Below are positions 3 to 3,084 of a stretch of 64,000 nucleotides of DNA, in pieces. How positions within the stretch are numbered: the first letter of the stretch is position 1; every line of letters begins with the position of its first letter. This DNA is from Gemmatimonadota bacterium (lineage in GTDB: Bacteria; Gemmatimonadota; Gemmatimonadetes; Gemmatimonadales; GWC2-71-9), in assembly GCA_003222055.1 (NCBI GenBank), contig QHUT01000055.1, forward strand, positions 1 through 64,000, in the 5' to 3' direction. Position numbers and translations under genes: made by a program. The notes below the pieces were generated by a model. That model saw only the letters and a list, made by a program, of their open reading frames with translations. It was not told the origin of the DNA and did not search any database.

Positions 3-317
3 TCGGGGGGCTCGTACGCCGGCGTGTTCCTGCTCGGGGCGACCTCGGGAATTGTGGCGGCGCCGTGCGGGGCCCCGGCGTTCGCCGCCGTGCTGACGTG
101 GGTGGCCACCACGCGCAGCGGAGTGCTGGGGTTCACGTACCTGTTCGTGTTCTCGCTCGGCATGACCGCCCTGCTGGTCGTCGTCGGGTTGTTTTCGGGA
201 ACGCTGGCGGCGCTGCCGCGGGCGGGCGCGTGGATGGTGTGGATCAAGAAGGCCGCGGGCGTGATCCTGCTGGGCATGGCGGAGTACTACTTCATTCAAG
301 CGGGGATGGTGTGGTGA
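3..317 (+). CDS. CcdA/DsbD-like cytochrome c biogenesis transmembrane protein, C-terminal part (truncated by window start)
   Basis: Hydrophobic ORF open to window start: LLGATSGIVAAPCGAPAFAAVLTWVATT...; stop overlaps the ATG of a TlpA-like gene. Confidence 0.7.
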   Translation, partial: SGGSYAGVFLLGATSGIVAAPCGAPAFAAVLTWVATTRSGVLGFTYLFVFSLGMTALLVVVGLFSGTLAALPRAGAWMVWIKKAAGVILLGMAEYYFIQAGMVW

Positions 318-814
318 TGCGATACATGTTGCGTGTCGGGGCCACGTTGGCACTGGCCGCGGCGTCGCCGCTGGGCGCGCAGGACGTCGGCCTGGCGGTC
401 GGCACGAAGGCGCCGGTCGTGGCCGTGGAGGACCTCGATGGCAAGTCCGTGGACCTGGGCCAGTACATCGGCCGCCAACCGGTGGTGCTCGAGTTCTGGG
501 CGACGTGGTGTCCGCTGTGCAAGGCGCTCGAGCCGTCGCTCAAGGCGGCCCACGCGCGCTACGGCCGCACAGTGCGGTTCCTCGCCATCGGCGTCGGGGT
601 GAACCAGTCGCCGGCTTCGATCAAGCGTCATCTCGCGGAGCACCCGCTGCCGTTCCCCGTACTGTTCGACGCGAGGGGCGCGGCGGTGCGGGGCTACGAG
701 GCGCCCACGACCTCGTACATCGTCGTGGTCGACAAGACCGGCACGGTGACCTACACGGGCACCGGAGCCGAGCAGGACATCGCGGCGGTGTTGCAGCGGG
801 TCGCGAGCGACTGA
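317..814 (+). CDS. TlpA-like thiol-disulfide oxidoreductase (thioredoxin fold)
   Basis: Signal peptide then VVLEFWATWCPLCKALEPSLKAAHARYG; ATG overlaps the upstream TGA. Confidence 0.85.
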   Translation: MRYMLRVGATLALAAASPLGAQDVGLAVGTKAPVVAVEDLDGKSVDLGQYIGRQPVVLEFWATWCPLCKALEPSLKAAHARYGRTVRFLAIGVGVNQSPASIKRHLAEHPLPFPVLFDARGAAVRGYEAPTTSYIVVVDKTGTVTYTGTGAEQDIAAVLQRVASD

Positions 815-815
815 G

Positions 816-1400
816 CTACTCCCCCGTCTTCGGCGTGACGCGGTCGATCGCGCCCGCCAGCTCCTTGTACGCCTGCGGGTCGATCTCCCGGAACGGCGCC
901 ATCACGTGCGCGATCTTCCCGTCCGGTCCCACCACGAACAGGTTGCGGTTGTCGAGCCCGTACTTGGGGTTGATGGCGCCGTACGTCTTACCGATCAGGC
1001 TCCCGCTGTCGCTCGCGAACAGATACGGGAACTCGTCGTCGCGGGCCCATGCGGCGAGCGTGTCCGCGGGATCCACGCTGATGGCGATGAGGATCACGTT
1101 GCGACCGTCGTGAAACAGCTGTGCGTACTGATCACGGTACGCATGCATTTGAATCGTTCACCCTTTGGTGCGCGCCTTGTAGAAGAACGCCAGCACGACG
1201 GTCTTGCCTTTGAAATCGCTGAGATGGATCGGAGCCCGGAGCACGCCGTAGCGGGTGGCGCCGGGGAGCGTAAAGTCGGGCGCGGCGACGCCGACTTGCA
1301 GCGGCTCGGGCGGCTTCGCCTCCTGCGCCGGGGCAGGACTTGGGGATGCGACGAGTGCCGCCGCGAGCGGCACGAGCAGCGCGAGTGACGGACGTGACAT
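816..1400 (-). CDS. Peroxiredoxin (AhpC/TSA-like), candidate selenoprotein with in-frame TGA at 1158-1160
   Basis: ORF-track ORFs 1158..1400(-) and 816..1148(-) are in the same frame and join as ...KTVVLAFFYKARTKG[TGA]TIQMHAYRDQYAQLF...; TGA replaces the peroxidatic Cys. Confidence 0.75.
1122..1143 (-). promoter_or_regulatory. Candidate bacterial SECIS hairpin downstream of the in-frame UGA
   Basis: mRNA UGA-N14-UGCGUAC-CGUGAUCA-GUACGCA: 7-bp perfect stem, 8-nt loop with G at loop position 2, loop starting 21 nt after the UGA. Confidence 0.55.
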
Positions 1401-1443
1401 CGCTGTTCCTCTCAGTTCGACGGGTTCGTTGAAATTTACACCG

Positions 1444-3084
1444 CTAGCGCGATGGGCGTGTGTCAGAAACGGGTGGCGTCGCTCCGATGCTGGGCGCGCG
1501 ATAATTCACGTCCAGCACCGCGAGCCGCGCGAGGTGGGTGGCGAGCCGGCGCGTGAAGTCGGCGTAGTCCCGCTCGTCGCGCGGTGTCCACAGCACTTCC
1601 GCGAGCGCGCAGGCCCGCGGGAACGCCATGTACTCCACCCGCTTCGGGTCCGGGATGTACTCGGTCCACACCTGGCCCTGTGCTCCCAGCACGTGGCGGG
1701 CTTCGTCCGCCGTGAGCTCCGCGGGCACGGGCTCGAACGCGTACACCGTGTCGAGCGGCAGAAACCCGCCGATCGCCAGCGGCTCCCGCGTCGTGTCGGT
1801 GGACTGATAGTAGTCGAAGTAGGTGTGCGATCCGGGCGCCATCACCACGTCGTGCCCTGCCCGCGCCGCCGCGATGCCGCCCTCGATGCCGCGCCACGAC
1901 ATCACGGTAGCATTGGGCGCGAGCCCGCCCTGGAGAATCTCGTCCCAGCCGATGAGCGAGCGGCCATGGGCGGTGAGAAACTCGTCCATGCGGCGTGTGA
2001 ACCAGCTCTGCAGCTCGTCTTCGTCTTTCAGGCCGAGCTCGCGGATGCGCTCCTGGGCCAGCGGGCTCGCCTTCCACTGGGCCTTGGGGGCCTCATCGCC
2101 GCCGATGTGGATCCAATGGCCCGGAAACAACGCCATCACTTCCGTGAGCACGTTTTGGTAGAACCGGATCGTCTGTTCGCCGGGGTTGAGGATGTTCTCG
2201 TCCACGCCCCACCTGGTCCAGGGGGAGAGCGTGTCGCCCTTGTTCCCCAGCTCGGGATAAGCGGCGATCGCGGCCTGCGAATGCCCCGGCATCTCGATCT
2301 CGGGGACGATCGTGACGAACCGCGACTGGGCGTACGCCACGATCTCGCGGATGTCGTCCTGCGTGTAGAAGCCGCCGTGCGGCTGCCCGTCGAAGCGCCA
2401 CGAGGTCGAGTCCCGTCGGTCCGGCCGTCCCACGATCGTCTCCCGGCGCCACGCACCCACCAGCGTGAGCCGCGGGTACTGCTTGATCTCGATGCGCCAT
2501 CCCTGATCCTCGGTGAGGTGCCAGTGGAAGCGATTCATCTTATGGAACGCCAGGAGATCGATGTACTTCTTCACGAACTCCTTCGGCATGAAATGGCGCC
2601 CCACGTCCAGGTGCATCCCGCGCCAGCTGAAGCGCGGGTAGTCCTCGATCGACACCGCCGGTATCGTCCAGGCGGTGCCGGCCACCTTCGCCTCCCGCAG
2701 GATGGTGGGGGGAAAAAGCTGACGGAGTGTCTGGATGGCATAGAAAGCGCCCGCGGGGCGGGCGGCGCGGATCGTGACCCGACTGCGGCTCACGTCCAAG
2801 CGGTACCCCTCGTCGCTCACCGTCCGTAGAGTGCTGTCGAGACCGAGCGAGATCACCGGGACGCCGCGGGGAGGCGCCGACGAGCGCACGACCAGACGAT
2901 AGCCCGTCGCGGGGAACAGGTAATCGGCGAGCATGAAGCCGAGCGCGCGGCTCGCCGCGTCCGTCGTGATCACCGTCGCGCCGGTGAGCGTGAAGGTCCC
3001 GGCCTTGGGCGTGAGATGCACAGGGCGGGGGATGACGGCGAACCCGGAGTCGAGCGTGAGCGCCAGCGCCAGCGCGGCCAGCAT
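1444..3084 (-). CDS. Beta-N-acetylhexosaminidase (GH20)
   Basis: FSWRGMHLDVGRHFMPKEFVKKYIDLLAFHKMNRFHWHLTEDQGWRIEIKQYP and HIGGDEAPK motifs; start inferred at ATG 3084 overlapping upstream TGA. Confidence 0.92.
   Translation of the reverse strand: MLAALALALTLDSGFAVIPRPVHLTPKAGTFTLTGATVITTDAASRALGFMLADYLFPATGYRLVVRSSAPPRGVPVISLGLDSTLRTVSDEGYRLDVSRSRVTIRAARPAGAFYAIQTLRQLFPPTILREAKVAGTAWTIPAVSIEDYPRFSWRGMHLDVGRHFMPKEFVKKYIDLLAFHKMNRFHWHLTEDQGWRIEIKQYPRLTLVGAWRRETIVGRPDRRDSTSWRFDGQPHGGFYTQDDIREIVAYAQSRFVTIVPEIEMPGHSQAAIAAYPELGNKGDTLSPWTRWGVDENILNPGEQTIRFYQNVLTEVMALFPGHWIHIGGDEAPKAQWKASPLAQERIRELGLKDEDELQSWFTRRMDEFLTAHGRSLIGWDEILQGGLAPNATVMSWRGIEGGIAAARAGHDVVMAPGSHTYFDYYQSTDTTREPLAIGGFLPLDTVYAFEPVPAELTADEARHVLGAQGQVWTEYIPDPKRVEYMAFPRACALAEVLWTPRDERDYADFTRRLATHLARLAVLDVNYRAPSIGATPPVSDTRPSR

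Follow-up and report, generated by a model that had tools for sequence, protein, structure and literature searches.

The minus-strand gene at positions 816–1400 of the window (the whole 64,000-nucleotide stretch of Gemmatimonadota DNA that was analyzed) very probably encodes a selenoprotein, a predicted exported peroxiredoxin whose apparent internal stop codon is almost certainly read as selenocysteine (Sec). Sequence data alone could not make the Sec reading any firmer. The TGA codon, an RNA hairpin downstream of it and the Sec machinery all recur across the Gemmatimonadota, which bears out the Sec candidate proposed in the initial annotation.

Only one TGA, at 1158–1160, interrupts what is otherwise a continuous frame formed by the minus-strand open reading frames 1158–1400 and 816–1148; re-reading the sequence confirmed both the coordinates and the peptide originally quoted for them. 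With TGA translated as Sec (U), the gene runs from an ATG at 1398–1400 to a TAG stop at 816–818 and codes for a protein of 194 amino acids. Direct reading of the sequence also identified a Shine-Dalgarno-like GAGAGGA (1407–1413, minus strand) 6 nt 5′ of the ATG. The read-through protein matches the Pfam AhpC-TSA family at 95.6 bits (cut-off, 26) and the match covers both sides of the TGA. Residue 81, the predicted Sec, aligns with the peroxidatic cysteine of solved peroxiredoxins such as AhpE of Mycobacterium tuberculosis. A second version of the locus, 90.6% identical to window positions 4–2155, is present in the same assembly (L028, G000:C95, 4026 bp) and has the TGA too. It probably comes from a second strain in the bin.

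The claim that the TGA falls on the catalytic cysteine of an AhpC/TSA peroxiredoxin held when homologues were aligned. The column contains TGA in 78 of 97 homologues and a Cys codon in the other 19 (18 TGC and 1 TGT), with no other codon represented. A scan of a genome collection retrieved 14 loci; among the 13 close ones, almost all titled Gemmatimonadetes, 12 have TGA and 1 has TGC. Furthermore, 309 of the 395 Gemmatimonadota genomes drawn have a peroxiredoxin match and, among the matches listed, nearly all contain one TGA. When 80 of these genomes with weaker matches were examined again, both TGA and Cys forms were present. Chance is ruled out by far, since dozens of independent assemblies share this TGA. 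Protein conservation runs past the TGA to the C-terminus, in agreement with the earlier argument that coding conservation on both sides speaks against a decayed pseudogene.

The SECIS-like hairpin that had been suspected at the right distance after the TGA was found there; its synonymous codons are frozen and one of its base pairs covaries. This putative SECIS element (UGCGUAC-CGUGAUCA-GUACGCA; 1122–1143, minus strand), identified from its fold, synonymous freezing and covariation, begins 15 nt after the UGA. Its 7-bp stem consists of GCGUAC/GUACGC plus a closing U-A pair and carries an 8-nt loop (CGUGAUCA), with 21 nt from the UGA to the loop. Bacterial SECIS elements have in common a small apical loop with a guanosine (PMC1088965). 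In keeping with this, the stem-loop lies directly downstream of the UGA and its small apical loop contains a G. Synonymous disagreement at codons +6 to +11 is only 0–0.03 in 58 TGA rows of the alignment, whereas the remaining codons average 0.44, and most of codons +6 to +11 drift freely in the Cys rows. The closing pair covaries among the 78 TGA rows (T-A in 33, G-C in 19 and C-G in 16), yielding 68 paired rows, a number that none of 20,000 shuffles reached (best, 49); control third-position codon pairs with the same spacing elsewhere had no comparable covariation. The six inner stem pairs are whole in all but one of the 78 TGA rows, and the 6-bp stem is intact in 69 of 70 distinct Sec rows versus 3 of 19 Cys rows. 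The SECIS constraint extends into the protein sequence, judging from residues Ala+6, Gln+10, Tyr+11 and Ala+12, which are fixed or almost fixed in the Sec forms and variable in the Cys forms.

The host genome (3.69 Mb in 173 contigs, 96% complete) encodes all four components of the Sec machinery that the initial annotation proposed to look for. SelB scores above its curated cut-off (G000:C86:6007), SelA and SelD match at 547 and 389 bits, respectively, and the tRNA-Sec, detected at 80.9 bits (RF01852), was also called by ARAGORN as tRNA-SeC with the anticodon UCA (TCA). The lack of SelB or tRNA-Sec, named at the outset as grounds for discarding the Sec reading, is therefore excluded. The SelB match sits in an open frame of 938 amino acids, compared to approximately 620–670 in many relatives, and its true start may be downstream (L001/L009). 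The SelD protein of this genome is itself a selenoprotein, with a TGA at the usual Sec site (SHGAG-U-ACKLGPAELAQVL) and a strong hairpin 3′ of it (L046, G000:C43, minus strand). We also identified a second Sec peroxiredoxin (L029, G000:C11; 2379–2819, plus strand), a PrxQ/Bcp-like protein of 146 amino acids with the motif NTPGUN and a Pfam AhpC-TSA match of 114.5 bits. A possible hairpin follows its TGA and no signal peptide is evident.

The machinery and the TGA form also occur together across the phylum. SelB (E < 1e-60) was detected in 132 of 144 TGA genomes and, when 51 SelB-negative genomes were examined again, just four (G390, G143, G352 and G301) had the TGA. With a clear tRNA-Sec defined as a match of at least 60 bits, and scattered matches of about 50 bits taken as other tRNAs, 28 of 32 TGA genomes carried one versus 2 of 48 Cys-only genomes (Fisher 5e-15, a value overstated by counting genomes as independent). 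Both of the Cys-only genomes with a tRNA-Sec also have SelB. The 28 positive TGA genomes comprise 15 of the 16 with SelB and 13 of the 16 seemingly without it. Because these 13 genomes carry a clear tRNA-Sec, the SelB gaps in TGA genomes (12 of the 144, and the four above) are likely gaps in draft assemblies. A clear tRNA-Sec was not found in 4 of the 32 TGA genomes tested, including the single-contig G157 (L084), which has SelB and perhaps a divergent tRNA-Sec.

Several other explanations for the interrupted frame were weighed against Sec insertion. TGA is one base away from TGC and TGT, and Cys homologues exist, as would be expected if a nonsense mutation or a sequencing error had affected an ordinary Cys peroxiredoxin and produced a pseudogene or an artefact. 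However, TGA occupies this column in the great majority of homologues, which derive from many different assemblies; the coding sequence is conserved on both flanks, and the conserved RNA hairpin is essentially limited to TGA genes. Conservation of the TGA across genera, families and orders excludes a point mutation or sequencing error, which the initial annotation had named as an outcome that could overturn its proposal; we rejected this explanation as extremely improbable. Reassignment of TGA to a sense codon throughout the lineage would similarly account for the readthrough in the peroxiredoxin gene, but the adjacent CcdA and TlpA genes stop at TGA and so do 19 of the 78 Sec peroxiredoxin genes. 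Only the hairpin-bearing TGA is passed, and the genome of the window has SelB and tRNA-Sec. Since TGA works as a normal stop, we also rejected an altered genetic code, whose probability we place close to nil.

The UGA could also be a point of programmed readthrough or termination, with a truncated product of 80 amino acids as the functional form. Some of this product is likely to be made because bacterial Sec insertion is usually incomplete; a passage in one report puts the efficiency at 30–40% in E. coli (PMC4513850). Yet the truncated protein would end just before the catalytic residue and lack most of the fold, and the conservation that continues to the C-terminus argues against it. We consider a functional truncated form very improbable and retain Sec insertion at the UGA as the preferred reading.

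The sequence and predicted structure are consistent with an exported peroxiredoxin that relies on a single Sec. Residues 1–26 (MSRPSLALLVPLAAALVASPSPAPAQ; 1323–1400, minus strand) were judged by eye to be an N-terminal signal peptide, and the confidence of the AlphaFold2 model is below 50 over most of residues 1–24. The model, in which Sec81 was folded as Cys, has a pLDDT of 82.6 and contains a helix (residues 81–95) that starts at U81. The best 50 PDB matches to the model are peroxiredoxin-family entries, including the 1-Cys peroxiredoxin AhpE at a target-normalised TM of 0.85. The mature protein has no cysteine and, therefore, no resolving cysteine in the chain of the kind that defines 2-Cys peroxiredoxins. 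From about 45 residues upstream of the Sec to the C-terminus, no other cysteine was found in any of the 97 homologues. Because no homologue has another cysteine in the region examined, the protein should be an exported 1-Sec peroxiredoxin.

The peroxiredoxin gene converges with two plus-strand genes predicted to function in thiol redox reactions. One encodes a CcdA-like membrane electron transporter that begins before the window and whose 3′ part (3–317) matches Pfam DsbD_TM at 75 bits; L028, from the same genome, contains the entire gene, and there the match reaches 137 bits. The CcdA-like gene precedes a gene (320–814) for a TlpA-like thioredoxin protein with a WCPLC motif, a signal peptide-like start and matches to Pfam Redoxin, AhpC-TSA and Thioredoxin. 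The stop codon of this second gene abuts that of the peroxiredoxin gene. The Pfam matches agree with the CcdA-like and TlpA-like neighbours noted initially, which lie on the opposite strand in convergent orientation. Counted by hand, the convergent CcdA-TlpA pair is present at 23 of the 28 Sec loci whose flanks are long enough versus 0 of 6 Cys loci (Fisher 3e-4, overstated because related genomes were treated as independent), and it is kept from the genus of the window to other families of the class. The pair is absent nearby in 5 of the 28 Sec loci.

DsbD/CcdA systems are known to transfer electrons to partner thiol proteins, and the conserved gene order suggests that the CcdA-TlpA pair is the probable electron source for the peroxiredoxin. 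The selenoprotein could instead receive electrons from elsewhere, such as a thiol of low molecular weight or a different thioredoxin of the envelope. The five Sec loci without a convergent pair nearby fit such a source, and gene order is not biochemistry; on the other hand, conservation of the pair beyond the genus and its absence beside all six Cys forms examined favour the CcdA-TlpA link. We regard a different electron source as possible, if somewhat doubtful.

With CcdA-TlpA as the electron source, the enzyme could operate as follows. SelB, carrying Sec-tRNA(Sec), would bind the hairpin that begins 15 nt after the UGA and allow the ribosome to read this codon (1158–1160) as Sec81, and the putative signal peptide would export the product. 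In the model, the protein adopts the peroxiredoxin fold and the first active-site helix begins at Sec81. Oxidation of the peroxidatic residue by peroxide is known peroxiredoxin chemistry, and peroxide is predicted to oxidise the Sec to selenenic acid. With no further Cys or Sec in its mature form, the protein would be unable to make an internal disulfide or selenylsulfide and would require an outside thiol for re-reduction. CcdA may pass electrons to TlpA, which could then re-reduce the oxidised Sec, as gene order suggests.

Sec and Cys have replaced each other repeatedly in this family. A midpoint-rooted maximum-likelihood tree, built from 89 distinct proteins, requires 8 Sec/Cys changes in one direction or the other, and well-supported branches force at least 7 of these. 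Tandem copies of the family combine Sec and Cys forms in G063 (L100, G063:C7) and two Sec forms in G263 (L109, G263:C18). The Cys homologues of the Gemmatimonadota belong to the same family, have the same conserved residues and also lack a second cysteine. However, they use TGC or TGT, their hairpin is mostly decayed, most are in genomes without SelB or tRNA-Sec, and none of the six loci examined converges with CcdA-TlpA genes. They also differ in the active-site motif PxxxT(S)xxC/U. Thr or Ser is present at position −3 in 57 of 58 Sec rows and the Arg at residue 152 is invariant. The motif Pro, at codon 7 before the TGA (window 1178–1180), is Tyr in this protein; among the 78 Sec forms the position holds Tyr or Phe in 62, Val in 1 and Pro in 15, whereas all 19 Cys forms have Pro. 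On the tree, this association involves two or three independent contrasts and is not significant (median p of 0.25), which makes it a lead rather than a result. As a lead, the change from Pro to an aromatic residue hints that the active site is adapted to Sec.

We tentatively propose, at slightly less than even chances, that a dedicated selenium-dependent pathway for peroxide reduction in the envelope, running from CcdA through TlpA to the exported 1-Sec peroxiredoxin, is ancestral in much of the Gemmatimonadota, that Sec let the otherwise near-universal active-site Pro turn aromatic, and that at least seven Sec/Cys switches accompanied the loss or retention of the Sec machinery. The repeated switching, tied to this machinery, offers naturally paired enzymes in which the benefit of selenium to an exported peroxidase can be examined. 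Furthermore, the highly uniform SECIS element across the whole phylum offers a clean system for studies of SelB recognition. Standard annotation, which reads the TGA as an end, splits the gene, and an enzyme common in an abundant soil phylum can thus easily be overlooked. The main text of selenoproteome papers PMC13188914, PMC5029168, PMC9312934, PMC5330540 and PMC12013277 makes no mention of Gemmatimonadota, and a search with the phylum name and selenoprotein terms returned nothing specific, although literature outside this search may differ. A phylum-wide lineage of exported peroxiredoxins with no resolving cysteine, usually an aromatic residue in place of the active-site Pro, repeated Sec/Cys switching and a usual link to CcdA-TlpA thus appears undescribed in the literature searched.

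Established families of bacterial selenoproteins include Sec peroxiredoxins with a TxxU motif, which were initially demonstrated in Eubacterium acidaminophilum (PMC13188914, PMC9312934). Like the PrxU protein of this bacterium (NF040737; “Prx, TxxU”), the Gemmatimonadota protein has the AhpC/TSA fold, a predicted Sec in TxxU at the peroxidatic position and UGA decoding. It differs from PrxU in its signal peptide (judged by eye), the lack of any other cysteine and the replacement of the motif Pro in 63 of the 78 Sec forms. The PrxU profile matches the protein at 61.3 bits; because this score is far under the cut-off of 270, the protein is not PrxU as the family is defined. M. tuberculosis AhpE (1-Cys; 1xxu and 4x0x) ranks by sequence among the nearest solved structures, resembles the model at the TM of 0.85 given above and also works with a single peroxidatic residue. 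The equivalent of AhpE R116 is conserved as the invariant R152 (LDNRNLFVV), but the Gemmatimonadota protein has a predicted Sec in place of Cys, a putative signal peptide and an aromatic residue in place of the motif Pro. A 2012 mBio paper by Cho et al., which PMC4491210 cites, reportedly described a Caulobacter pathway comprised of ScsB, a TlpA-like protein and an envelope peroxiredoxin. The arrangement proposed here is alike in pairing a transporter of the DsbD superfamily, which would pass electrons to a TlpA-like protein, with a peroxiredoxin of the cell envelope. It differs in that the electron link is proposed from gene order and in that a short CcdA would serve as the transporter and a selenoprotein as the peroxiredoxin.
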